Below, piece by piece: positions 49,966 through 64,000 of a DNA stretch of 64,000 nt. Under the pieces are notes generated by a model. The model saw only the letters and a list, made by a program, of their open reading frames with translations. It had not been told where the DNA came from and did no database searches. A program made the translations under genes and the position numbers. The first letter of the stretch is position 1. Each line of letters begins with the position of its first letter. The DNA comes from Stenotrophomonas maltophilia (GTDB lineage: Bacteria; Pseudomonadota; Gammaproteobacteria; Xanthomonadales; Xanthomonadaceae): NCBI RefSeq assembly GCF_006974125.1, contig NZ_CP037858.1, positions 992,001 to 1,056,000 on the forward strand, in the 5' to 3' direction.

Positions 49966-50245
49966 AAGCTTCCACCCTCTCCTTGAGCTTCTGGCCCGGA
50001 CGGAAGGTGACCACCGTACGGGCGGAAATCGGAATTTCCTCGCCGGTCTTGGGGTTACGACCCGGGCGCTGGTTCTTGCGCCGCAGATCGAAATTACCGA
50101 AGCCCGACAGCTTCACCTGACGTCCCTGTTCCAATGCTTCACGCAGCACATCGAAAAACGCGTCGACGAATTCCTTGGCTTCCCGCTTGTTCAGACCGAC
50201 TTCGTCGAACAGCTTTTCCGCCATCTCCGCCTTGGTCAATGCCAT
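49946..50245 (-). CDS. ihfA: Integration host factor subunit alpha
   Basis: A 99-residue DNA-bending protein that pairs with IhfB. It shows the HU/IHF signature [22 protein letters not shown] with the intercalating Pro in RPGRNP. It follows pheT by 27 bp, the usual arrangement. Confidence 0.97.
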
Positions 50246-50272
50246 TGCCTGCTACCCCCGAGTGCTGCCCGC

Positions 50273-52654
50273 TCAGCCGCGGATCCGGGCGTGGTGTTCA
50301 CGCTCGATGGCAGTGACCGCCTCGGCCACCACCGCATCCACGTCGCGGTCCGTCAGAGTGCGCGACTTGTCCTGCAAAATCAAGCCCATAGCGAGACTCT
50401 TGAATCCCGGCTCGACGCCCTGGCCGACGTAACGGTCGAACAGGTTCAGGTCGCGCAGCAGCGGACCGGCAGCCTGGCGGACGGTGGCCGCCAGATCGGC
50501 CCAGGCCACCTGTTCAGGCACCAGGAACGCCAGGTCGCGACGCACCGCCGGGAAGCGCGACAGCTCGCCGGCACGCGGCAGGCGGCGGGCCGTCAGCGGC
50601 TCCAGGTCCAGCTCGAAGGCGTACACATCGGCTTCGATGTCCATCGCCTTGGCCAGCCGCGGGTGGACCTGGCCAATCCAGCCAATCGCCACGCCATCAC
50701 GGAACACCTCGGCCGAACGGGCCGGGTGGCCGTAGGCACGGGCCGACGGACGGAACTCCAGCTGCGCGCCACTGGCGGCGGCCAACGATTCCAGGTCGCC
50801 CTTCAGGTCATGGAAATCGACCTTGCGGGTCGGCAGGCCCCACTGCACCGCCTGCGCATCGCCACAGACGGCAGCGGCCACGCGCGGGGTTTCCAGCGGT
50901 GCGGGCTGGCCGTCGCCAGCCTGCTGGGCGAACACACGGCCGATCTCGAACAGGCGCACGCGGCCCAGCTGGCGCGCGGCATTGCGGCCCAGCGTGGCGA
51001 CCAGGCCGGGCAGCAGCGACGGACGCATCACCGCCAACTCCGCCGACAGAGGGTTGGCCAGCGGCACCAGGCCGTCGCGCAGCTGCCACTGGGTCAGCAG
51101 CGCGTCGTCGACAAAGGCGAAGTTGACGGTTTCCTGCTGGTCACGAGCGACCAGCTGGCGACGCACGCTCAGCGCGTCCAGCTGGGTCTCGCTCGGCATC
51201 GCCACGCGCGAGGCACCGCCCGGCAGCGTGGTCGGGATCTGCTCGTAACCGTGGATGCGGGCCAGTTCTTCGATCAGGTCTTCTTCGATGGCAATGTCGA
51301 AGCGACGGCTCGGCGCGGCGACCTGCCAGCCGTCGGCGGTGGCGACCACGTCCATGCCCAGCGCGCGCAGGATGCGCTCGACTTCGGCGTCGTCGATGGT
51401 GATACCGAGCACGCGGGTGATGCGGGCGCGGCGCAGCTCGATCGTCGCCGGCTGCGGCAGGTCATCGACGCGCACGGCCTCGGTGACCGGCGCCGGGGTA
51501 CCGCCGGCCAGGTCCAGCACCAGCCGGGTGGCGTATTCGATGGCGGTGCGCGGCAGCGCCGGATCGACGCCGCGCTCGAAGCGGTGGCCGGCATCGGTGT
51601 GCAGGCCGAGCTTGCGGCCACGGCCCATGATCGCGGCCGGAGCGAAGTGCGCGGCCTCCAGGAACACGGCGGTGGTGGCATCGGTGACACGGGTGTCGAA
51701 GCCGCCCATCAGGCCGGCCAGGCCGACCGCACGGTCCGCATCGGTAACCACCAGGAAGCTGTCGTCCAATGCGGCATCGCGACCGTCCAGCAGCTTCAGG
51801 CTCTCGCCAGCGCGCGAACGACGCACGGCGATGCTGCCCTGCAGGGTGCCGAGGTCGTAGGCATGCATCGGCTGGCCCAGCTCCAGCATCACGTACTGGG
51901 TGATGTCGACCAGCAGCGAGACCGGACGCACGCCGCTGCGGCGCAGGCGTTCGGCCATCCACAGCGGGGTCGAGGCGGCGGCGTTGACGCCTTCGATGAC
52001 GCGGCCCAGGTAACGCGGCGCTTCGGCGCCGGCGTCGAGCTGGATCGACAGTTCGCGGCTGCCGACCGGCGCAATGGCATCGGCGGCGAAATCCAGCACT
52101 GCGCTGCGGGTGGCCGCAGCGACGTCGTAGGCAATGCCACGCAGGCTGAAGCAGTCGGCGCGGTTCGGGGTCAGCTTGATCTCGATGCTGGCGTCCGGCA
52201 GCCCCAGGTACTCGACCAGGGACTGGCCGACCGGTGCGCCGTCCGGCAGCTCCAGCAGGCCGGACGCATCATTGTCCAGGCCCAGCTCCTTGGCCGAGCA
52301 CAGCATGCCGTTGGACTCGACGCCGCGCAGCTTGGCCGGCTTGATCTTCAGCTCGCCGATCTGCGCACCGACCATCGCCAGCGGCGCGACCAGGCCCGGA
52401 CGCGCGTTCGGTGCGCCGCAGACGATCTGCAGCAGCTCGCCCTGCCCGGCATCGACCTTGCACACCTGCAGGCGATCGGCTTCGGGATGGCGTACGGCTT
52501 CGACGATGCGTGCCACGACCACGTGGTCGAGGCCGTCGCCAAGCGCGGTCACCTCTTCCACTTCCAGACCGATGGCGGTCAGCACCGCGCTCAGTTCATC
52601 GCGCGGGGCGGAGGTCGGGACGTGGCTGCGCAGCCAGTTTTCGGAGAATTTCAT
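50273..52654 (-). CDS. pheT: Phenylalanyl-tRNA synthetase beta subunit
   Basis: The 793-residue beta chain of the (alpha-beta)2 PheRS. It starts with the family N-terminus KFSENWLRSHV, has a tRNA-binding OB domain (about 40-150), the B3/B4 editing domain (about 215-390), the B5 domain and catalytic-like core, and a C-terminal ferredoxin-like anticodon-binding domain. It follows pheS by 83 bp that contain a SMAG repeat. Confidence 0.97.
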   Translation of the reverse strand: MKFSENWLRSHVPTSAPRDELSAVLTAIGLEVEEVTALGDGLDHVVVARIVEAVRHPEADRLQVCKVDAGQGELLQIVCGAPNARPGLVAPLAMVGAQIGELKIKPAKLRGVESNGMLCSAKELGLDNDASGLLELPDGAPVGQSLVEYLGLPDASIEIKLTPNRADCFSLRGIAYDVAAATRSAVLDFAADAIAPVGSRELSIQLDAGAEAPRYLGRVIEGVNAAASTPLWMAERLRRSGVRPVSLLVDITQYVMLELGQPMHAYDLGTLQGSIAVRRSRAGESLKLLDGRDAALDDSFLVVTDADRAVGLAGLMGGFDTRVTDATTAVFLEAAHFAPAAIMGRGRKLGLHTDAGHRFERGVDPALPRTAIEYATRLVLDLAGGTPAPVTEAVRVDDLPQPATIELRRARITRVLGITIDDAEVERILRALGMDVVATADGWQVAAPSRRFDIAIEEDLIEELARIHGYEQIPTTLPGGASRVAMPSETQLDALSVRRQLVARDQQETVNFAFVDDALLTQWQLRDGLVPLANPLSAELAVMRPSLLPGLVATLGRNAARQLGRVRLFEIGRVFAQQAGDGQPAPLETPRVAAAVCGDAQAVQWGLPTRKVDFHDLKGDLESLAAASGAQLEFRPSARAYGHPARSAEVFRDGVAIGWIGQVHPRLAKAMDIEADVYAFELDLEPLTARRLPRAGELSRFPAVRRDLAFLVPEQVAWADLAATVRQAAGPLLRDLNLFDRYVGQGVEPGFKSLAMGLILQDKSRTLTDRDVDAVVAEAVTAIEREHHARIRG

Positions 52655-52706
52655 GGTGTCACCCTGGTGGGCCCGGCGCATGCGCCTGGGCCTGCGTTGT
52701 TGAGTC

Positions 52707-52729
52707 CGCCGGGCATGGCCCGGCGCTAC
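52707..52729 (-). repeat. SMAG repeat between pheS and pheT
   Basis: On the bottom strand, GTAG is followed by the CGCCGGGCC/GGCCCGGCG-type palindrome. It lies in the mRNA between pheS and pheT and would form a hairpin there. Confidence 0.85.
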
Positions 52730-52737
52730 CTAGTGCG

Positions 52738-53907
<1,170 letters not shown>

Positions 53908-53926
53908 TTACGGCATCGGGAAGGAC

Positions 53927-54286
53927 TTATGCCGCCAGCGCGCCCTTGGCCTTTTCGGCCAGCGCAGCAAAACCGGCTGCGTCGTGCACGGCGATGTCAG
54001 CCAGGACCTTGCGGTCCAGGGTGATGCCGGCCTTCAGCAGACCGTTCATGAAGCGGCTGTAGCTCAGGCCGTTGATGCGGGCAGCCGCATTGATACGGGT
54101 GATCCACAGCGAACGGAAGTTGCGCTTCTTCTGCTTACGGCCGATGTAGGCGTACTGCTGTGCCTTGATGACCGCCTGCTTGGCGACGCGGAAGACCTTG
54201 CGACGGGCGTTGTAATAGCCCTTGGCGAGATCCAGAATCTTCTTGTGGCGGCGACGCGCCTGTACGCCACGCTTAACTCGTGCCAT
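53927..54286 (-). CDS. rplT: 50S ribosomal protein L20
   Basis: A 119-residue basic r-protein that binds 23S rRNA early in assembly. The sequence ([20 protein letters not shown], then [13 protein letters not shown]) is fully conserved. It lies 11 bp after rpmI. Confidence 0.98.
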
Positions 54287-54297
54287 TTTTCAGTTCC

Positions 54298-54495
54298 TCA
54301 GAGGTAAGGGAGCATGCGGTCCAGACGGCCTGCGTCTTCTGCACGGACATGGCCCGTCTGACGCAGATTACGCTTACGCTTGGTCGCTTTCTTCGTGAGG
54401 ATGTGGCTACGGTTGGCGTGGCCGCACTTGTACTTGCCCGAGGCGGTCTTGCGGAAACGCTTGGCCGCTGCCCGGTTGGTCTTGATCTTGGGCAT
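54298..54495 (-). CDS. rpmI: 50S ribosomal protein L35
   Basis: A 65-residue basic r-protein ([19 protein letters not shown]). A 266-bp gap without a gene separates it from infC; in other bacteria this mRNA region binds L20 for feedback control. Confidence 0.97.
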
Positions 54496-54761
54496 TGCAA
54501 TGTCCTTGATGGGATATGACCCTGGTTTCTGACTGATCTGGCGGCGGCCTGGGCCGCTCTTTCCGTCCTGCCATGATCGGCGTACGACCCGTCCTGGGTG
54601 GGTCGAGCCGGGCATGATACAGGCAAAACCGCCCTGCCACCAGCCCCCGCAACCCTTTTGCCGGCAATTCACCGGCCTGCCGCAAAAGCAAAGGGACGCC
54701 AGCGGCGCCCCCTTACCCTGAACCATTCAGCCAGGCGCCCCGGAAGGCAGCCCGTCAGGCC

Positions 54762-55289
54762 TCAGGTCTTCTTCTTCGGCGCGATCATCATGACCATCTG
54801 ACGCCCTTCCAGGCGCGGACGGGATTCGATGACGATGTCCTCGCCCAGATCGGTCTCGATCCGGTTGGCCATCTCGCGACCCAGTTCCTGGTGGCTCATT
54901 TCACGGCCACGGAAGCGGATGTTGACCTTGATCTTGTCGCCTTCCTCAAGGAAACCGCGCATCTTGCGCAGCTTGATCTGGTAGTCGCCCTCGTCCGTGA
55001 CCGGACGGAACTTCACTTCCTTGATCTCGACCTGCTTGGTCTTCTTCTTGGCCTCGCTGGCCTTCTTCTGCGCTTCGAACTTGAACTTGCCGAAGTCCAT
55101 GATCTTGCAGACCGGCGGATCGGCCTGCGGCTGGATTTCGACCAGGTCCAGGCCTTCATCTTCGGCCATGGACAGCGCTTCGTCGCGCGACAACACGCCG
55201 ATCATTTCTCCGTCACTGCCGATCACGCGGACGCGCGGCACACGGATTTCCTGATTCTTGCGGTTCTGTTTGTTGTCAGGGGTGCTGAT
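54762..55289 (-). CDS. infC: Translation initiation factor IF-3
   Basis: IF3 keeps 30S free and checks the start codon. The 175-residue form starting at 55289 uses an ATC codon: the TGGGAGAA Shine-Dalgarno, 8 bases before, points to it, and the product then begins (I)[23 protein letters not shown] at 55304 would put the start inside that Shine-Dalgarno. Domains are the usual N-lobe (about 10-80; [13 protein letters not shown]) and C-lobe (about 90-175; [13 protein letters not shown]). A non-standard start codon is the known means of IF3 feedback in E. coli (AUU). Confidence 0.93.
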
Positions 55290-55352
55290 ATTACGTTCTC
55301 CCAAGGGTATCGAACCGGCCCGGGTGCCTGTGCCCCCGGACCGGACCTTTGC

Positions 55353-57254
55353 TTACGCGCCCTCGGCGTGGAGCCGCTCGATGAAGGCCTGCAGGCTCAT
55401 GCTGCCCAGGTCTTCGCCAGAACGCGTACGCACCGCCACAGCCCCATTTTCCTTCTCGCGGTCACCAATGACCAGCAGGTAGGGCACGCGCTGCAACGTA
55501 TGCTCGCGGATTTTATAGCCGATCTTCTCGTTACGCAAATCCGAGCTGACGCGGAAGCCTTGCTCCGCAAGGGTTTTGGTCACGCCCGAGACGTAGTCGG
55601 CCTGGGCGTCGGTGATGTTGGCCACCACGACCTGGGTCGGCGCCAGCCAGGCCGGGAACTGGCCGGCATGGTGCTCGATCAGGATGCCCAGGAAGCGCTC
55701 CATCGAGCCAACAATGGCGCGGTGCAGCATGACCGGGTGCTTCTTCTGGCTGTTCTCGTCCACGTACTCGGCGCCCAGGCGGCCCGGCATCATGAAGTCG
55801 ACCTGCATCGTGCCCAGCTGCCAGGTACGGCCGATGGCGTCCTTCAGGTGGTACTCGATCTTCGGGCCGTAGAAGGCGCCCTCGCCCGGCAGCTCCTGCC
55901 ATTCCACGCCACAGGCGGTCAGCGCCGAGCGCAGCGCGCCTTCGGCCTTGTCCCAGGTGGCGTCGTCGCCCAGGCGCGATTCCGGGCGCAGGGCGATCTT
56001 GATCTGGATCTCGTCGAAACCGAAGTGCTGGTAGACCGCCAGCGCCTGCTGGTGGAACGCCGTCACTTCCGATTCGATCTGGCTCTCGGTGCAGAACACG
56101 TGGCCGTCGTCCTGGGTGAAACCACGCACGCGCAGGATGCCATGCAGCGCGCCGGACGGCTCGTTGCGGTGGCAGGAACCGAACTCACCGTAGCGGATCG
56201 GCAGGTCGCGGTAGCTGTGCAGGCCCTGGTTGAACACCTGGATGTGGCCCGGGCAGTTCATCGGCTTGACCGCGTAGGTGCGCTTCTCCGACTCGGTGAA
56301 GAACATGTTGTCCTGGTAGTTGTCCCAGTGGCCGGACTTCTTCCACAGGCTCACGTCCAGGATCTGCGGGCAGCGCACTTCGCCGTAGCCGCTGTTGCGG
56401 TAGACCTTGCGCATGTACTGCTCGACCACCTGCCACAGCGCCCAGCCCTTCGGATGCCAGAACACCAGGCCCGGCGCCTCTTCCTGCAGGTGGAACAGGT
56501 CCTGCTGCTTGCCGATGCGACGGTGGTCGCGCATTTCAGCTTCTTCGATGCGCTTGATGTACGCCTCAAGCTGCTTCTTGTCGGCCCAGGCGGTGCCGTA
56601 GATGCGCTGCAGCTGCTCGTTCTGCGCGTCGCCGCGCCAGTAGGCGCCGGAGATGCGGGTCAGCTTGAAGGCCTTCAGGAAGCGCGTGTTCGGCACGTGC
56701 GGGCCGCGGCACATGTCCACGTATTCCTGGTGGTAGTACATGCCCATCGCCTGGATGTCGTCGGACATGTCCTCGATCAGGCGCAGCTTGTAGTCCTCGC
56801 CGCGGGACTTGAAGATCTCGATCACTTCGGCGCGCGGCGTCATCTTCTTGATGACGTCGTAGTCCTGGGCGATCAGCTCACCCATGCGCTTCTCGATCGC
56901 GGCCATGTCGTCCGGGGTGAACGGGCGCTCGGAGTAGATGTCGTAATAGAAGCCTTCGGCGATCACCGGGCCGATCACCATCTTCACGTCCGGGTACAGC
57001 TGCTTGACGGCGTGGCCGACCAGGTGGGCGCAGGAGTGGCGGATGATCTCCACGCCCTCCTCGTCCTTGGCAGTGATGATGCGCAGGCTGGCATCGTGGT
57101 CGATGACGTCGCTGGCATCGACCAGCACGCCATCCACGGCACCGGCGATGGTGGCCTTGGCCAGGCCGGCGCCGATCGACTGGGCGACGTCCATGACGCT
57201 GACGGGGTTTTCGAATTCGCGGCGGCTGCCGTCGGGAAGAGTAATGTTGATCAT
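55353..57254 (-). CDS. thrS: Threonyl-tRNA synthetase
   Basis: A 633-residue class II synthetase. It has an N-terminal TGS domain (about 1-62), the editing domain with [10 protein letters not shown], the catalytic core with [10 protein letters not shown] (zinc-binding Cys), [22 protein letters not shown] motif 2 region, and a C-terminal anticodon-binding domain. It is the first gene of the translation operon, 64 bp before infC. The upstream leader has the form of a Thr-responsive attenuator. Confidence 0.97.
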
Positions 57255-57321
57255 CGCAGTGGCTTCGTGCGGGGCCCGCGGGGCGGGCTGGAAAGCGTTC
57301 CCGGGGCGGCGCCCGGGCAAT

Positions 57322-57357
57322 AAAAAAGCGCCGCGAGGGCGCCTGGAACACAGGGCC
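57322..57357 (-). promoter_or_regulatory. Attenuator of thrS: terminator and competing hairpin
   Basis: On the bottom strand, GCGCC/GGCGC arms (57328-57342) followed by TTTTTT form a terminator 68 bp before the thrS ATG. An alternative stem GGC-CCTG/CAGG-c-GCC (57338-57357) uses the terminator's 5' arm, so the two cannot form together. Confidence 0.7.
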
Positions 57358-57369
57358 TTCGGGGGCAGG

Positions 57370-57396
57370 TCAACAGTGGGCGGTGGTAGTGCTCAT
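57370..57396 (-). CDS. Putative thrS leader peptide MSTTTAHC
   Basis: An 8-residue ORF (ATG to TGA) in the thrS leader has three adjacent Thr codons, ACT ACC ACC, in a run of eight. It ends 13 bases before the alternative hairpin and about 28 before the terminator. A ribosome waiting at these codons for Thr-tRNA could change which hairpin forms. Its Shine-Dalgarno is weak. Confidence 0.6.
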
Positions 57397-57456
57397 GTCA
57401 CACGCTCGGCCGGCGCTGGGCGCGGGCCACCTTGTTCCAGTCAGGGTTCGGCGATG

Positions 57457-57485
57457 ATCTTAAACCAGTGCACGGGAAAGCCCAA
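57457..57485 (-). promoter_or_regulatory. Promoter of the thrS operon
   Basis: On the bottom strand TTGGGC (57485-57480) and TAAGAT (57462-57457) are 17 bp apart, putting the start near 57450 and giving a leader of about 195 nt. Confidence 0.6.
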
Positions 57486-57531
57486 GGCCCACCGTACGGT
57501 CCCCTGAATGGGTCTCGCTGGCGGCGTGAAA

Positions 57532-57550
57532 TTGCAATGATTACCATGTC
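57532..57550 (+). promoter_or_regulatory. Fur-box-like sequence upstream of the iron-uptake trio
   Basis: TTGCAATGATTACCATGTC keeps the core AATGATxAxCAT of the Fur consensus (10 of 12 core positions). It lies about 135 bp before the first gene of the DUF3325-DUF3649-PepSY operon. Confidence 0.35.
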
Positions 57551-57683
57551 GGCGCAGGCCGCCCCGTGCCAGCCTGCCCGCTTTCCCCCAGGACCCCGTG
57601 ATGCGCCACCCGCTCCGACCGGCTCCCGCCGGCCCCGCCCGTGCCCCGCGTTCGCCGGCCCGCTGCCGCGCCGGCCGCCCGCG

Positions 57684-57980
57684 ATGATCACCGTCGGCCT
57701 TTCCACGCTCGGCTTCTGCAGCCTGGGCATGCTGGCAGCGATGTTCTCGGCGCTGGCCTTCTATGCCGCCTCGCCGCACTGCCGCTGGCCGCGCCTGCGC
57801 CGCGCCGGCCGCCTGGGCCGCCAGATCGGCCTGGTCGCCGCTGCCGCCGCGCTGTGGCTGTGGATGGCCGAGCTCGGCTTTGCCGCAGGCCTGGTGGCGA
57901 TGCTGTGCACCTGGATGCTGGCCGCCATGCTGCTACCGGCGCTGGCCGCCTGGCACCGTCCCGGCCCGGAGTCGCCCTGA
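57684..57980 (+). CDS. DUF3325-like small membrane protein
   Basis: A 98-residue protein with three predicted helices. Its length, context and the pattern around WMAELGFAAGLVAMLCTWML suggest DUF3325, found with DUF3649 and PepSY proteins in siderophore/iron uptake loci. The frame is open far upstream to 57432 but the upstream part is Pro/Arg-rich and unlike protein, so the ATG at 57684 is used. Confidence 0.7.
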   Translation: MITVGLSTLGFCSLGMLAAMFSALAFYAASPHCRWPRLRRAGRLGRQIGLVAAAAALWLWMAELGFAAGLVAMLCTWMLAAMLLPALAAWHRPGPESP

Positions 57981-58243
57981 TGTGGCCGCGCGCCTTCGCT
58001 GGCATCGTCGCCGGCTTCCTCCTCGCCGCGGCCGCGACCGGTCTGCTGGCATGGCTGCCGCCCGGCCCCTGGCAGCGGGCGCTGGTACCGACCCTGATCG
58101 CCTTCATCCCGCTGTGGATGCTGGCCGCCCTGTGGGCGTTCAGTTTCCGCAGCGCGCTGCGCGCCTGGCTGGTGCTGGCCGGCAGCGCCGCCGCCGGCTT
58201 CGCCGTGCTCGGGCTGCTGCGCCTGACCGGCGCAGTGCAATGA
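57980..58243 (+). CDS. DUF3649-like iron uptake membrane protein
   Basis: An 87-residue protein with three helices matching the DUF3649 layout (RAFAGIVAGFLLAAAATGLL, then LWMLAALWAFSFRSALRAWL). Its ATG shares one base with the preceding stop (TGATG), so translation is coupled. Confidence 0.75.
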   Translation: MWPRAFAGIVAGFLLAAAATGLLAWLPPGPWQRALVPTLIAFIPLWMLAALWAFSFRSALRAWLVLAGSAAAGFAVLGLLRLTGAVQ

Positions 58244-58253
58244 GACCCGCCCC

Positions 58254-59813
58254 ATGAAATTCAGCTCTCAGACCCTGCGCACGTTCACCACCCTGCACAC
58301 CTGGGTCGGCCTGGTGGCCGGCTTCGGCCTGTTCGTGGCCTTCTATGCCGGCGCGTTGACCCTGTTCCACCACGACCTGCCGCTGTGGCAGACGCCTGGC
58401 GCAGCCACCGCGCTGCCGGCCGGGCTGGACGATGCGCAGTACCTGCTGGAGGACGTGCTGGCCACACATCCGGAAGCCCGCCGCCACGTCGGCATGACCT
58501 TCCCCGGCGCCGACCATCCGCAACCTCTGGCGTACTGGCAGGCCGATGACGGCAGCTGGCGCTACGCCTGGCCGGGGCAGATCGCCGGCAGCCCCACACC
58601 ACCGCAGACCGGGCTGGCGGAACTGGTCAACGAGCTGCATTACAGCCTGGGCCTGCCGGTGGCCGGCATCTACGTGATGGGCATTGTCAGCCTGCTGTAT
58701 GGCATGGCGCTGCTGAGCGGCCTGGTGATCCATCTGCCGAAGCTGTTCGGTGACCTGTTCGCTCTGCGTCCGGGCCGCAACCTGAAGCAGCTGTGGCAGG
58801 ACGCGCACAACGTGATCGGCGTGCTGAGCCTGCCCTTCCACCTGATGTTCGCGGTGACCGGCGCCCTGCTCTGCCTGGTATTCGTGCAGATGGCCCTGCT
58901 CAACCCGCTGATCTTCGACGGCAAGGCCCTGCAGGCGGTGCCAACAGCAATGGACACCGCGCCGGTCCGGGAAGCCACCGGCATTCCGTCGCCGCCGGGC
59001 AGCCTGCGCGTGCTGCATGCGCGGGCGCTGGAAGTAGCGCGCGCGCAGGGCGTGACCAGCTTCGAGCCGGCCTACCTGAAGCTGGCCAACGCCGGCGACG
59101 CCAACGCCACCATCGAGATCACCGGTGAATCCACTGGCACGCTCGGCCCACTCGGCGCTGTGGCGCTGGACGTTGCCACCGGCAATGTACTGGCGACCCA
59201 GCTGCCGGGCCAGCGTGACGCCAACCACGCCACGCTCAGCGCCGCCTATGCGCTGCACTTCGGCGAGTTCGGCAACGGCGTGGTGGTCTGGCTGTATTTC
59301 CTGCTCGGCCTTGGCGGTGCCTTCCTGTTCTACTCCGGCAACCTGTTGTGGATCGAGTCGCGGCGCAAGCGACGCCAGCCGCAGCAGCCACGCGCCGGTG
59401 TGAACATGGCGCGGGCCACGGTCGGCGTGTGCATCGGCCTGTGCGTGGCGATCTCGGTGGCATTCGCCAGCGCGCTGGTGCTGGAACGGCTGGCACCGGC
59501 GGCGGTCGATCACGGCATCCGCTGGGCCTGCTTCGGCAGCTGGGCAGTCTGTGCGTTGTGGGCGGCATTGCGCCGCCCGGCACAGGCCGCACGCGAGCTG
59601 CTGTGGGCTGCGGCGATCAGCACCGCGCTGGTGCCGATCCTGCACGGCGCACTCAGTGGCGACTGGCTGTGGCGCGCCGCCGCGCAGGGCCATTGGCCGC
59701 TGTTCTGGATCGATGCCATCGCGCTGGCCATGGCCTTTGGCTTCGCCCGCCTGGCAGTCGCCAGCCAGCGTCGCGCCCGCAACGGCGATCCGAACAGCGT
59801 CTGGGCCAACTGA
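58254..59813 (+). CDS. PepSY-associated transmembrane protein, iron-uptake type
   Basis: A 519-residue inner membrane protein with an N-terminal helix (HTWVGLVAGFGLFVAFYAGAL), conserved membrane His residues (HH near 39, HY near 130, H in AHNVIGVLSLPFH), PepSY-like periplasmic segments and several C-terminal helices. Related proteins (FoxB/FpvG/PiuB-like) act in ferrisiderophore reduction. It is the last gene of a coupled three-gene operon. Confidence 0.88.
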   Translation: MKFSSQTLRTFTTLHTWVGLVAGFGLFVAFYAGALTLFHHDLPLWQTPGAATALPAGLDDAQYLLEDVLATHPEARRHVGMTFPGADHPQPLAYWQADDGSWRYAWPGQIAGSPTPPQTGLAELVNELHYSLGLPVAGIYVMGIVSLLYGMALLSGLVIHLPKLFGDLFALRPGRNLKQLWQDAHNVIGVLSLPFHLMFAVTGALLCLVFVQMALLNPLIFDGKALQAVPTAMDTAPVREATGIPSPPGSLRVLHARALEVARAQGVTSFEPAYLKLANAGDANATIEITGESTGTLGPLGAVALDVATGNVLATQLPGQRDANHATLSAAYALHFGEFGNGVVVWLYFLLGLGGAFLFYSGNLLWIESRRKRRQPQQPRAGVNMARATVGVCIGLCVAISVAFASALVLERLAPAAVDHGIRWACFGSWAVCALWAALRRPAQAARELLWAAAISTALVPILHGALSGDWLWRAAAQGHWPLFWIDAIALAMAFGFARLAVASQRRARNGDPNSVWAN

Positions 59814-59817
59814 GCCT

Positions 59818-59840
59818 TCGCCGGGTATGGCCCGGCGCTA
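59818..59840 (-). repeat. SMAG variant (ATAG tip) overlapping the VOC gene stop
   Basis: On the bottom strand, GATAG is followed by CGCCGGGCCATACCCGGCG. The TAG at 59838-59840 is the stop codon of the VOC gene. Confidence 0.75.
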
Positions 59841-60242
59841 TCGGAGCAGGTGCGCTTCGTCCGGGTAACGGCTGACTTCGATCAGGTTGCCATCCGGGTC
59901 GCGGAAGTACACCGATTCGATCGGACCCAGTGCGCCGGTGCGGGCCACCGGCCCTTCCTCCACCGCGACGGCCTGCGCCTGCAGGTGCGCCAGCACATCG
60001 GCCATGGCGGTAGGTGTGATCAGGCAGAGATCGGCGCTGCCCGGCGTGGGTTGCAGCGCATGCGGCTGCAGCGGGGCACTGGCCGGATGCAGGTTGATCT
60101 TCTGCCGGCCGAACTGCAGCGCGGTACGGCCGGCGCCGAAGCGCACGACCTGCATGCCGAGCACGCGCTGGTAGAAATCACAGCTGCGTTCGATGTCGGC
60201 CACGGTGAGGACCAGATGGTCCAGGCGTTCGAGATGGATCAT
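59838..60242 (-). CDS. VOC (glyoxalase/dioxygenase) superfamily protein
   Basis: A 134-residue metal-binding protein with two beta-alpha-beta-beta-beta modules. It has LERLDHLVLTVADIERSCDFY at the N-terminus and ESVYFRDPDGNLIEVSRY at the end, where candidate metal ligands are His 8, a mid-chain residue and Glu near 123. The reaction is unknown. Its start codon overlaps the 3' edge of a perfect hairpin (60241-60267). Confidence 0.88.
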   Translation of the reverse strand: MIHLERLDHLVLTVADIERSCDFYQRVLGMQVVRFGAGRTALQFGRQKINLHPASAPLQPHALQPTPGSADLCLITPTAMADVLAHLQAQAVAVEEGPVARTGALGPIESVYFRDPDGNLIEVSRYPDEAHLLR

Positions 60243-60267
60243 GCCCGCAGCGTAGCGCTGCGGGCAT
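60241..60267 (-). promoter_or_regulatory. 12-bp perfect hairpin at the VOC start codon
   Basis: ATGCCCGCAGCG and its complement enclose a 3-base loop. In the mRNA the hairpin's last two bases are the first two of the start codon, so the ribosome-binding region is buried. Confidence 0.5.
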
Positions 60268-60339
60268 TGCTTCGATGTGCGGGTTTGGGCCGATGACGTT
60301 GCGGCATCCGTCGGGCATGGCCCACCGCCAGCGGGTGGC

Positions 60340-61530
60340 TCAATCGCCGCCGCGTGCCTTCTGCCACGGGGCGAGCATGGCGTTGAGCAGGCTGGCCTGT
60401 TCGTCGTCGCCGGTCAGCTCCCACATGAACACGCCGGCCAGGCCTTGCTCGCGCGCGAACTGCGCACGCAGGCCGATCGAGCGCGGGTCCTCATAGCTGA
60501 TGAAGATCTTCTGCGCGGCGTTGTACAGCCACGGGCTCTGTGCCTGCGGCTGCCAGTGCTTCGTCCAGCCCGGCTGGTCGAGATAGCGCGCCTTGATCAC
60601 CCGCCAGTCGCCGGCATCGGCCGGTGCACTGTAGGCCTGGTACAGCCCATCCGGGGCGTCGCCGGTGACCTTGAAGCCGCGCCCGTAGAACGGCACGCCC
60701 AGCACCAGCTTGCCGGCCGGCACGCCGTGCTCGCGGTAGTACTGCACCGCGCCGGCCACGTTGTTCCAGCGCCGCAGCTCCGGTGCCAGTGGGTCGGCCG
60801 CCACCTCATGCAGCGGCGCGTTGAAGGTCGACACCGCCGAGAAGCCGGTGCCCATGTCGTAGCTCATCAGGTTGATGAAATCGAACACCTTGGCCAGCGC
60901 CGGCAGGTCGTAGCTGGCGGCCGGATCGTAGGGGCCATCGGTCTGCAGGCGACCGGCGGCCAGCGCGGCGGTCAGCAGCATCGGCTGCCCCGCCTTGCGA
61001 CCGCGCGCATCGAGTGCCACGCGGAACGCCTGCGCGAGCCGGGTCAGGTTGGCGCGATCCTGCGGACGGTGCGCCAGCTCCCTGGGGCCGCCACTGACCG
61101 GGAACTCCCAGTCGATATCCACCCCATCAAAGCTGCCGGCGTGGCGATCGAAGAACAGCGCCATGCACGAATCCACCAACCGTTTGCGGCTGGCCTCGGT
61201 CAGCGCTGCATCGGAGAATCCACCTGCGCCCCATCCGCCGATTGAGATCAGCGTGCGCAGGTGCGGGTGCGCCTTCTTCAGCTCGGCCAGCGCAGCGAAA
61301 TTCTTCGGCGCTTCGGCACCGATCGTGCAGCGCCCGTCCTCGATGGTCGAGAACGCGTAGAACAGGTGGGTGAGGCGCTCGGCCGGAATGCTCGACACCG
61401 GGTAGCGCTCGGCCGAACCACCGGGGTAGTAGGCACCGAAGATCGGTGGCTGCGCGGGCGCCGCATGCACGGCAATGGGCAAGGCACCGGCAATCAGCAC
61501 GGCAAGGACAGCCACGGTCTGGCGGAACAT
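60340..61530 (-). CDS. GH18 family chitinase
   Basis: A secreted 396-residue glycosidase. It has a signal peptide (1-23) and a GH18 TIM barrel with the catalytic DGVDIDWE (135-142, acid E142), SIGGWG (96-101) and LMSYDMGT motifs. It lacks carbohydrate-binding modules, so it probably acts on soluble chitooligosaccharides or fungal/bacterial wall fragments. Confidence 0.93.
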   Translation of the reverse strand: MFRQTVAVLAVLIAGALPIAVHAAPAQPPIFGAYYPGGSAERYPVSSIPAERLTHLFYAFSTIEDGRCTIGAEAPKNFAALAELKKAHPHLRTLISIGGWGAGGFSDAALTEASRKRLVDSCMALFFDRHAGSFDGVDIDWEFPVSGGPRELAHRPQDRANLTRLAQAFRVALDARGRKAGQPMLLTAALAAGRLQTDGPYDPAASYDLPALAKVFDFINLMSYDMGTGFSAVSTFNAPLHEVAADPLAPELRRWNNVAGAVQYYREHGVPAGKLVLGVPFYGRGFKVTGDAPDGLYQAYSAPADAGDWRVIKARYLDQPGWTKHWQPQAQSPWLYNAAQKIFISYEDPRSIGLRAQFAREQGLAGVFMWELTGDDEQASLLNAMLAPWQKARGGD

Positions 61531-61746
61531 GGGATCTCCCGGTTCGAAGGCGCAGCCACGTTAGCAAACCGATGAGGCCGTGGGACCGATGTCGTGGCAT
61601 GTCGTCCTGTGGACAGCAACGATCGGCCAGAGGGCGACAACGTGGCAGTCATGCCGCTGCCATCATGCATTGCAGCAGGACACGCACCGACGCAGCGCAC
61701 CGGCTCCCCTGCATCGGCTATGGTGGCCGCGGATCTTCAACCGCAC

Positions 61747-62751
61747 ATGGACATGAGCACCGATCACGACACCACTCCCGACGGCGACCTGCAGGACGGC
61801 GCATCCCTCGACGAACACCAGATACTGGAAGCGCGCGCCTACGACGCATTCCACGAAGGCGACCTGCCGCAGGCGGTGGAGCTGTTCGGCGAACTGATCG
61901 CCATCGCTCCCGAGGTGCCTTACCTGCACTACATGCGCGGGCTGGCGCACAAGTACCTGCGCAACTGGCCGGCGTCGCTGCAGGACAACCTCCAATCGGA
62001 GCAGCTGCGCGGGGAATTCGATGTCGCCACCGCGTGGAATGCCGGAATCGCGGCCACCGGCATGGCGGACTGGGCCGAAGCACGACGCCAGTGGACCCGC
62101 TGTGGCATCACCCTGCCCGAGGGCGAAGGCCCGATCGAGGGCAACTTCGGCGTGGCCTGCATGCGCCTGGCGCCGTGGTCCGGCGCCGAAGTGGTGTACA
62201 TGAGCCGCATTGATCCGGCGCGTGCACGCATCGACAACGTACCGCTGCCCGAAAGCGGCTTCCGCTTCGGCGACATCGTGCTGCATGACGGCGCATCGAC
62301 CGGCCGCCGTACGTACGGCGAACACGAGGTGCCGGTGTTCAATGCACTGCAGCGCCTGCAGTCATCGGACATGGCGACCTTCACCGTGTTCGTGCAGTGC
62401 GATTCAGCCGACGACATCACTGCCCTGGGGGCCATGAACCTGCCCGGCATCGGCATGGTCGAGGACTGGACCGCGACCGTGCGCCGGCTGTGCCGCCGCT
62501 GCAGCTATGGCACCCCGCATCGGCATGACGACGAGGCCGGGAACGATGACGACGGTGGCTGGAGGCGCGAGCGCGACCTGGGCATCGCCGCGCAGGGCCG
62601 GGCCGCGGTGGAGACGCTGCTGGCGACGTGGACCGCGGCGGGAGCGGGGCGCGTGCTGGAAGCCATCGAACAGCGCGAGCATCCATTGAGTGCCCCCGAG
62701 CCGGGCCAGGTGTGGTGGCTGGGGGAGGAGGAAGACGGCGCGCAGGTGTAA
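61747..62751 (+). CDS. Tetratricopeptide-type protein
   Basis: A 334-residue acidic cytoplasmic protein. Residues about 25-130 form TPR-like helices (AYDAFHEGDLPQAVELFGELI, then APEVPYLHYMRGLAHKYL). The C-terminal half is a mixed domain with a CxxC-like RLCRRCSYG stretch followed by a His/Asp-rich loop. I cannot name the family. The ATG at 61747 is chosen; an in-frame ATG at 61720 would add nine residues. Confidence 0.7.
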   Translation: MDMSTDHDTTPDGDLQDGASLDEHQILEARAYDAFHEGDLPQAVELFGELIAIAPEVPYLHYMRGLAHKYLRNWPASLQDNLQSEQLRGEFDVATAWNAGIAATGMADWAEARRQWTRCGITLPEGEGPIEGNFGVACMRLAPWSGAEVVYMSRIDPARARIDNVPLPESGFRFGDIVLHDGASTGRRTYGEHEVPVFNALQRLQSSDMATFTVFVQCDSADDITALGAMNLPGIGMVEDWTATVRRLCRRCSYGTPHRHDDEAGNDDDGGWRRERDLGIAAQGRAAVETLLATWTAAGAGRVLEAIEQREHPLSAPEPGQVWWLGEEEDGAQV

Positions 62752-62787
62752 GGACCAACCGTCCTCCGCCACAGGATCGCGGGCAAA

Positions 62788-62815
62788 GAAAAAGCGGGCC
62801 GAAGCCCGCTTTTTC
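62788..62815. terminator. Bidirectional terminator between the TPR gene and pnp
   Basis: AAAAAGCGGGC and its complement enclose CGAA, giving T runs both ways. A second 9-bp hairpin (GTGAGGACC/GGTCCTCAC, 62828-62848) sits nearer pnp. Confidence 0.85.
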
Positions 62816-62872
62816 ATCTGCGAAGGTGTGAGGACCAACGGTCCTCACCCGCCGCACAATCGGCAGTACCGA

Positions 62873-64000
62873 TTATTCGGCGCTGACGGCGTCGCCTTCT
62901 TCCACGGCCTTCATCGACAGGCGGATACGGCCCTGCTTGTCGACTTCCAGCACCTTGACCTTGACCACATCGCCTTCCTTCAGCACGTCGCCGACCTTCT
63001 CGACGCGGTCGCTGGAGATCTGCGACACGTGGACCAGGCCGTCCTTGCCCGGCAGGATGGTGACGAACGCACCGAAGTCCATGATCTTGGCGACCTTGCC
63101 TTCGTAGATGCGGCCCGGCTCGACGTCCGAGGTGATCTGCTCGATGCGGGCCTTGGCGGCCTGGGCAGCGATGGCGTTGACCGAAGCGATGACGATGGTG
63201 CCGTCATCCTGGATGTCGATCTGGGTGCCGGTTTCCTTGGTGATGGCCTGGATGGTCGAACCACCCTTGCCGATCACTTCGCGGATCTTGTCCGGGTGGA
63301 TCTTGATGGTCAGCAGGCGCGGCGCGTAGTCCGACAGCTCTTCACGCGGAGCGGTCAGGCCGTGGGCCATTTCGCCCAGGATGTGCAGACGGCCAGCCTT
63401 GGCCTGCTGCAGAGCCTGCTTCATGATCTCTTCGGTGATGCCTTCGATCTTGATATCCATCTGCAGGGCAGAGATGCCCTCAGCGGTACCGGCCACCTTG
63501 AAGTCCATGTCGCCCAGGTGATCCTCGTCACCCAGAATGTCGGACAGGACGACGAAGCGCTCGCCTTCCTTGACCAGGCCCATGGCGATACCGGCAACCG
63601 GCGCCTTCACCGGCACGCCGGCGTCCATCAGGGCCAGCGAGGAACCGCAGACCGAGGCCATCGACGAGGAACCGTTCGACTCGGTGATTTCCGAGACGAC
63701 GCGGATGGTGTACGGGAAGGCTTCCAGCGACGGCATGACAGCCAGCACGCCGCGCTTGGCCAGGCGACCGTGGCCGATTTCGCGGCGCTTCGGGCCCATC
63801 ATGCGGCCGCACTCACCCACCGAGAACGGGGGGAAGTTGTAGTGGAACAGGAAGTTTTCCTTGTACTCACCGGCAACGGCGTCGATGACCTGGCCGTCAC
63901 GGGCAGTGCCCAGGGTGATGGTCACGATGGCCTGGGTTTCGCCGCGGGTGAACAGCGAGGAACCGTGGGTACGCGGCAGCACGCCGGTCTTCACGGCGAT
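62873..64000 (-). CDS. pnp: Polynucleotide phosphorylase, 3' part
   Basis: The last 375 or so codons of PNPase, the phosphorolytic 3'-5' RNA exonuclease of the degradosome. Visible are the second RNase PH core, the KH domain ([17 protein letters not shown]) and the S1 domain ([18 protein letters not shown]). The reading frame continues past the right edge, so the start is outside the window. Confidence 0.97.

Follow-up and report, generated by a model that had tools for sequence, protein, structure and literature searches.

Leader-peptide, or ribosome-mediated, attenuators of amino-acid and aminoacyl-tRNA synthetase operons are well known from Escherichia coli, where thrL, trpL and pheM are examples. 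In these E. coli leaders a protector (1:2) hairpin gives termination without translation, although to our knowledge such a hairpin is not universal among leader-peptide attenuators. The thrS and thrZ T-boxes of Bacillus subtilis bind uncharged tRNA directly. A survey by Lopatovskaya et al. from 2010 is said to treat the attenuation of aminoacyl-tRNA synthetase operons, and it may already predict the leader described below, which would reduce its novelty.

Terminators are described in the B. subtilis thrS and thrZ leaders (PMC3997798, accessible text). In the E. coli thrS operator, ThrRS binds its own mRNA and translational control is exerted by mimicry of tRNA-Thr (PMC9976931, accessible text). 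The only thrS leader peptide that we found in print belongs to thrL-thrS of Streptomyces lividans TK24; it contains two Thr (MKRVRPFLETTPGFVPAR) and, in the accessible text of its report, is read as Thr-dependent attenuation (PMC8079986). The trpL attenuator of Sinorhizobium meliloti has a leader ORF that, according to the accessible part of its description, starts at the 5' end of the RNA (PMC7298713). Full-text searches on thrS leaders and attenuators brought up no published thrS leader that we recognised in Xanthomonadales; a genome-wide screen for premature terminators has an accessible main text without thrS, and its supplementary tables may list such terminators (PMC2965389).

Here we describe a leader in front of thrS on the minus strand of a 64,000-nucleotide stretch of Stenotrophomonas maltophilia (NCBI RefSeq assembly GCF_006974125.1, contig NZ_CP037858.1, positions 992,001 to 1,056,000), referred to as the window. 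Judging from sequence comparison, we give a probability of about 0.88 to its being a ribosome-mediated transcription attenuator, by which charged tRNA-Thr would set the transcription of thrS and the genes that follow. Such a leader would probably let the bacterium make more ThrRS when charged tRNA-Thr runs short. The kind of device, ribosome-mediated attenuation, is already known; an element spread across the order, the form without a protector and the initiation region are what we did not find in print.

Like thrL, trpL and pheM of E. coli, the leader combines a short ORF of cognate codons, mutually exclusive antiterminator and terminator hairpins and a T-run before the gene. Unlike them, it has no detected protector, mostly eight codons with one to three Thr across its relatives, thrS as its target, and an initiation-region hairpin placed between two Shine-Dalgarno (SD)-like sites. 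With the E. coli thrS operator, as far as the accessible account goes, it shares the gene and the feedback on ThrRS supply, but it is predicted to act by transcription termination with a translated ORF and has no tRNA-like arms by eye; inspection of the window leader by eye likewise revealed no mimic of the tRNA-Thr anticodon arm near the thrS ribosome site. The T-box leaders, in the part of their description available, share a terminator/antiterminator switch upstream of thrS and the response to tRNA-Thr charging that is predicted here, whereas the window leader has no Rfam T-box match. The S. lividans system, in its accessible description, differs in coming from an actinobacterium, in its 18 codons, in being leaderless and in having no U-run found (PMC8079986), and the two leader peptides look unrelated, judged by eye alone. 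The S. meliloti trpL leader, in the portion described, resembles apparently leaderless leaders that we find in four other families (f4, f7, f8 and f10), but senses Trp rather than Thr, and the window's own leader does not look leaderless. Whereas thrS of E. coli is the textbook case of translational feedback by tRNA mimicry, a group including Xanthomonas, Stenotrophomonas and Lysobacter, with the genes for IF3, L35 and L20 behind thrS, appears to use a Thr leader peptide.

Layout of the thrS leader in the window

In the order of transcription, the leader and the genes behind it comprise the following features:

57480-57485, minus strand: putative -35 element TTGGGC, weak, matching TTGACA at 3 of 6 positions
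57457-57462, minus strand: putative -10 element TAAGAT, with a spacer of 17 bp to the -35
near 57450, minus strand: predicted transcription start
57428-57432, minus strand: distal SD-like site AGGTG, 5' of hairpin P1, from the comparison of anti-SD pairing
57408-57428, minus strand: hairpin P1 (GGCC c GCGC / GCGC c GGCC), from covariation and a swap test
57401-57406, minus strand: AUG-proximal AG-C-GTG (AGCGTG), with AG.GTG conserved and a putative SD role
57370-57396, minus strand: leader ORF MSTTTAHC, ATGAGCACTACCACCGCCCACTGTTGA, read from the sequence and conserved in relatives
57328-57366, minus strand: antiterminator, in which the post-stop segment pairs with the 5' arm, the loop and some of the 3' arm of the terminator
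57322-57344, minus strand: intrinsic terminator AGGCGCC-CTCGC-GGCGCTT plus T-run, with its hairpin at 57344-57326
55353-57254, minus strand: thrS, threonyl-tRNA synthetase, the first gene after the leader (Pfam TGS, tRNA_SAD, tRNA-synt_2b, HGTP_anticodon)
54762-55304, minus strand: infC (IF3), downstream of thrS and presumably on a shared transcript (Pfam IF3_N, IF3_C)
54298-54495, minus strand: an ORF that we take, from its translation, to be rpmI (L35)
53927-54286, minus strand: rplT (L20; Pfam Ribosomal_L20)
52738-53871, minus strand: pheS (Pfam tRNA-synt_2d, Phe_tRNA-synt_N), the listed ORF start probably lying upstream of the true one

The leader ORF has eight codons, including three consecutive Thr codons. 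A segment of 25 nt separates it from the terminator hairpin, whose T-run consists of six T (57327-57322), and 67 nt lie between the terminator and the thrS ATG at 57254. A first-pass annotation of this DNA had pointed out such an ORF (57396-57370) before thrS, together with two competing hairpins, one of them a terminator with six T, and both are present, the ORF in the sequence and the hairpins in sequence and folding. Its promoter stands in part: the hexamers and their 17-bp spacer are there, but they are weak, the -35 agrees at only 3 of 6 positions, and a consensus promoter scan upstream of the window leader found none. The -10 is conserved by eye in Stenotrophomonas and Xanthomonas loci (TTGGTTTAAGAT, TTGGTTTACCAT; shared TTGGTTTA..AT), and TTGAC-N16..20-TANNNT occurs upstream in 54 of the 138 copies assembled below. 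The fold of the window leader alone is not unusual against shuffles (z of -0.81, -0.62 and 0.15 for three stretches). Because single-sequence fold statistics were unconvincing and the scan gave no consensus promoter, the question was settled by comparison.

Rfam at its gathering score gave no family match in positions 50000-64000, and a laxer threshold gave two matches only, to other families, with E-values of 2.8 and 4.8 and on the opposite strand. The closest thrS found is that of Stenotrophomonas maltophilia ATCC 700475 (L001; 99% protein identity). On the other side of the leader, two divergent plus-strand ORFs (57432-57980 and 57641-58243) have no Pfam match; they are followed by a PepSY_TM protein (58254-59813, plus strand). 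A chitinase-like gene of glycosyl hydrolase family 18 occupies 60340-61530 on the minus strand.

Distribution and conservation of the leader

A scan of GTDB genomes for thrS yielded 80 loci, of which one matching from residue 29 (L029) and one without upstream DNA (L058) were excluded. The 5' core of the leader, with the consensus nnnnCAAGGTGGCCCGCGGnnnnCGCCGGCCGAGCGTGCGACATGAGCACTACCACCGCCCAnCGCTGA, is found in 56 of the remaining 78; a further 21, including Neisseria, Halomonas and Acinetobacter, are without the core, some of them with other Thr ORFs, and one locus that begins at its leader ATG (L050) was left out of the core count. The covariance model R1, built on 57 core sequences (the 56 loci and the window), matches 252 of 398 genomes of the order at an E-value of 0.01, nine of them weakly (E > 0.001). 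Five of these nine were followed, and one lies at thrS (genome G038, locus L186) and four elsewhere. Of 274 genomes sampled from the class, R1 matched six: three within the window's own family, its own genome included, and three weakly (24-32 bits), with no thrS within the 2.7-3.1 kb fetched. A closer look at 16 genomes brought 14 further matches with given loci (five more came without a locus), likewise weak, at 27.3 bits or less, and with no thrS nearby. Since the further matches and those weak ones of the class sample lack thrS, every strong match examined adjoins thrS. Similar Thr leader arrangements thus occur in many related bacteria of the order. A second leader of the same motif in the window's own genome was sought and rejected, as a 21-base pattern has one match at 0 mismatches, and with three mismatches it has ten against 16 for a control pattern.

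For the comparison, 138 distinct copies were kept from 154 with thrS downstream: the window, 56 GTDB-scan loci and 81 from the order survey. The last are the top 30 matches and others picked for genus spread, among the roughly 160 survey matches listed with coordinates, and they lean towards the consensus. Codon 2 of the leader ORF varies freely in these copies. Codon 3 is Thr in all 138 (ACT 134, ACC 2, ACG 2) and codon 4 in 127 (ACC 108, ACG 18, ACA 1; 11 non-Thr), a conservation somewhat overstated because 81 of the 138 are best-scoring matches of a model trained with the Thr codons. Conservation at pattern bases is partly by construction, because copies were selected by G.GYGACATG or near variants; the Thr codons lie outside that pattern. 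The departures from ACC at codon 4 are synonymous in 19 of 30 cases. Most ORFs have eight codons (117 of 138), the others six (8 copies), seven (6), nine (5), or 12 and 16 (one each), and they end in TGA (133), TAG (4) or TAA (1). Conserved Thr runs had been anticipated in relatives; Thr codons are indeed conserved, but only 68 ORFs have three Thr, 62 having two and 8 a single one, so that runs of three cannot be called general.

The ACT at codon 3 is striking because ACT is rare among the Thr codons of thrS itself (49 of 1401 in loci L001-L057). It is possible that a slow codon serves sensing or that a constraint acts on the nucleotides; near-invariance suggests nucleotide-level constraint beyond coding, and to that extent counts against an attenuator. 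The single-Thr leaders count against it as well, one Thr being few for a classical attenuator.

Downstream of the ORF, a terminator was scored where a hairpin of -7 kcal/mol or stronger precedes a T-rich stretch. Between the leader stop codon and thrS, 125 of 138 copies have one, compared with 2.0 expected from ten shuffles each, and 13 copies show none by this definition. When the energy limit is dropped, 127 copies have one, and these were used for the folding tests. For a swap test, in which each strand is paired with its own or a swapped partner, 125 usable copies were thinned until no two were 0.80 or more alike, which left 52 representatives, and these were permuted 2000 times. Own partners pair better in the terminator arms (z = -10.3), in the two halves of P1 (z = -7.5) and in the antiterminator, tested as the post-stop segment with the 5' arm and loop of the terminator (z = -6.4), with 0 of 2000 permutations reaching the observed value in each case; for the antiterminator, the own pairing is better than that with the mean partner in 42 of 52 representatives. 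Five other pairings of these sequences served as controls for relatedness; besides the two protector pairings given below, they gave +2.7 for upstream with ORF (own partner worse), -1.5 for upstream with arm and -1.6 for ORF with arm. Compensating antiterminator strands can be seen by eye, for example CGAGG/CCTCG, CCAGG/CCTGG, CCCAAG/CTTGGG and CGCCACGCC/GGCGCGTGGCG. Scored by RNAduplex against shuffled segments, the antiterminator is only slightly above chance (mean z -0.72; p < 0.05 in 10 of 127); this z-score is too blunt because the sequence is rich in G+C, so that the swap test was used instead. The same test on the 52 representatives detected no protector pairing, either of the segment with the upstream part (z = -0.1) or with the ORF (z = 0.6), and an untranslated leader should therefore read through.

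The comparison thus backs the Thr codons, the terminator, the antiterminator and P1. The first-pass annotation had named a lack of Thr-codon and hairpin conservation in related genomes as the outcome that would speak against it; the result was the opposite, with both hairpins conserved and their helices covarying, and its attenuation reading is supported by the sequence comparison.

Folding of the 127 copies indicates how the switch might be thrown. In 105 of them, the structure that the segment forms as far as the terminator loop has a better energy than the terminator stem, and its pairing with the terminator begins a median of 3 nt past the stop codon; masking 9 nt makes this structure the weaker of the two in 85. 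The terminator appears in the minimum-energy fold of 36, 71, 100, 103 and 115 copies when 0, 6, 9, 11 and 13 nt are masked, and going from 0 to 11 nt after the stop switches it on in 68 copies and off in one. This effect is partly generic, because segments swapped between loci (632 combinations) also gain the terminator, from 0.45 unmasked to 0.83 with 11 nt masked. In the window, the unmasked segment from stop to T-run folds into the antiterminator (-19.5 kcal/mol), which persists with 0-8 nt masked and gives way to the terminator with 9-13 (masks of 0 to 13 nt). For a ribosome that holds the stop codon in its A site, we take the reach to be 10-13 nt.

From these elements we infer stalling, ribosome masking, read-through and the response of the operon. 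A ribosome would load on the leader, aided by one or both SD-like sites around P1, and translate the eight-codon ORF. With enough Thr-tRNA it would run to the UGA and cover about 10 nt after the stop, and because these hold the antiterminator 5' strand, the terminator would form; RNA polymerase would then stop and leave a short RNA of a predicted 130 nt or so. When Thr-tRNA is short, the ribosome would stall at codons 3-5, the post-stop segment would stay free, the usually more stable antiterminator would form, and polymerase would read into thrS.

The initiation region and competing explanations

Hairpin P1 shows changes on both sides at 6 of 7 pairs in the 57 core sequences, with 95.9% of cells paired. 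None of 500 shuffles reaches the observed value for four measures, and 4 of 500 do so for the number of pair types; versions of P1 slid along the sequence have 15-45% of cells paired, a comparison favourable to P1, whose structure was derived from the same sequences. Best pairing to the 16S tail, with what we take to be its anti-SD sequence, averages -7.6 kcal/mol upstream of P1 compared with -5.1 near the ATG, and in each of the 138 copies the site upstream of P1 pairs more strongly than any at 20 nt or less from the ATG. The distal SD-like site reads AGGTG in 122 copies, GGGTG in 11, AGGAA in two, and AGGAG, AGGTA and another sequence in one each. Closer to the start, AG.GTG stands at -10 to -5 in 135 of 138 copies; its middle base varies, and the G at -7 and that at -5 follow from the selection pattern. 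In the window this motif is AG-C-GTG, which can be read as a Shine-Dalgarno AGGUG carrying a single bulged base. No P1 was seen in five f11 loci, where the start region reads GAGGTG-GCAC-ATG, or in L186, where it reads GAG-T-GTG-GGAC-ATG. The hairpin between two SD-like sites is missed by the first-pass annotation, as are the absence of a protector hairpin and the spread across the order. Two candidate features were discarded: a GUG start for the leader ORF, since the P1 loop length shifts the frame between genera, and base pairing between GGU and the Thr codon ACC, proposed by RNAalifold, for which, by eye, exceptional sequences do not compensate.

A bolder proposal, which we regard as doubtful, is that the 5' core acts as a novel kind of initiation signal, serving the translation of a regulatory mini-ORF. 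P1 would bring the perfect anti-SD match AGGUG and the bulge-split AG-Y-GUG together, and this hairpin-bridged split SD would make translation of the leader nearly obligatory, replacing the absent protector hairpin. Since read-through would follow whenever the leader is not translated, a single ORF would give the cluster thrS-infC-rpmI-rplT two inputs, Thr-tRNA charging and initiation capacity, including its own product IF3. The f11 loci and L186 would then represent ancestral and intermediate states.

The 5' core (the SD-like site, P1 and the conserved AG.GTGYGAC) might alternatively be bound by a protein, for instance ThrRS, or L20 from the same cluster. This protein would interfere with translation of the leader or with the terminator, and the ORF would be secondary. 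The near-invariant bases around the start codon and the covariation of P1 would suit this, as would ThrRS autoregulation, known in E. coli from the accessible text of PMC9976931, yet we consider it improbable: SD elements can account for the conserved bases, an anticodon-like loop of 7 nt is absent from P1 by eye, the Thr codons persist with synonymous change, and loci without this core still have Thr leader ORFs.

More improbable still is a leader that senses general initiation or translation capacity rather than threonine, with any untranslated ORF leading to read-through. Codon 3, which is Thr in all 138 copies, and the Thr ORFs of other families indicate threonine as the main signal, although the presence of infC, rpmI and rplT in the cluster, the unusual initiation region and the lack of a detected protector pairing, by which an untranslated leader should read through, would all agree with it; as a second input, general capacity could be compatible with the attenuator explanation. 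A constitutive 5' or tRNA-gene terminator with a chance ORF is scarcely credible, since the antiterminator covaries, ORF length and Thr codons are conserved and no tRNA was found in positions 50000-64000 of the window, even though a pattern search places a tRNA 3' half no more than 190 nt upstream of 15 of the 138 copies and ARAGORN calls tRNA-Val(gac) in 7 of 9 loci, three of which (L012, L042 and L046) are among the 138.

The tRNA-Val(gac) genes called by ARAGORN lie just upstream of the thrS leader in L012, L042, L046, L212, L215, L222 and L264. As the tRNA gene adjoins the leader in these relatives, leader and thrS may use the tRNA promoter there.

Thr leaders with other start regions

Genomes that R1 missed (69) or matched weakly (4) were searched for thrS, a non-random choice consisting mostly of those with the lowest handles, and 71 of the 73 have the gene. 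Five genomes with partial genes were left out, and of the 66 upstream regions taken one was too short. Among the 65 used, 36 have a terminator, and 30 of these pass a filter for a Thr-containing leader ORF (5-16 codons, at least two Thr, just before the terminator), compared with 0.97 expected from shuffles that were scored on one terminator per locus, whereas the real data were scored on any. These ORFs are independent support for the attenuator. The 21 GTDB-scan loci without the core give a similar picture: 14 have a terminator and 8 of these a Thr ORF, against 0.33 expected, with three of the 8 (L044, L072 and L079) duplicating survey loci by eye. The swap test also favours own partners in the antiterminators of 38 non-core loci, for which 29 representatives were used (z = -6.8, 0 of 2000). 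In families f8 and f9 (28 loci) two loci have a terminator and none passes the Thr ORF filter; two f8 loci, L261 and L263, have MKTTTKN and MKTTTTN before weaker hairpins (-6.4 and -6.3).

A second design, different in sequence from the window's leader by eye, is common to families f2 and f3 and one f1 genome. It consists of a GAG-type SD, CGTA, a small hairpin, ACGATCACC and ATGACGCG, and its hairpin arms compensate (GTTC/GAAC, GTCC/GGAC, GCCC/GGGC), all by eye. By the same inspection, ACGATCACC or ACGATCACG precedes ATGACGCG in L210, L214-L218, L221-L223, L226, L231, L020, L030, L036 and L064. In other families a -10-like hexamer stands 5-8 nt before the start codon, by eye in 10 of 12 f7 loci, 3 of 4 f4 loci, the f10 locus and 2 of 14 f8 loci; such leaders apparently sit on leaderless mRNA. 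Leaderless-like Thr ORFs occur in L227, L230, L232, L237, L241, L243-L246, L249, L252, L254, L256, L261, L263 and L274, often with a CGA-ACT codon pair by eye.

In the sister families, therefore, a plain SD, two SD-hairpin-AUG designs and apparently leaderless starts seem to serve the same device. Such varied start regions make the evolution of attenuator leaders, and the start of ribosomes on very short ORFs, directly testable. Exceptions also occur in families with the core: in L211 (f1) and L069 (Rhodanobacter) the terminator is present but no Thr ORF, and L220 (f12) lacks both. L211 (genome G323), which belongs to the window's own family, offers a natural case for the consequence of sensor loss.

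Outside the order, a possible Thr leader ORF stands before a terminator in L039 (Aquincola; MTVMTPRTRSMAPTG), where it passes the filter, and in L045 (Neisseria; MHIPLAKIKTTR), where it fails. Three Halomonas-type loci (L051, L054 and L060) have, by eye, a hairpin just before thrS with a loop like UUGGUAU or UUGGUAG, resembling the tRNA-Thr anticodon arm of an E. coli-type operator.
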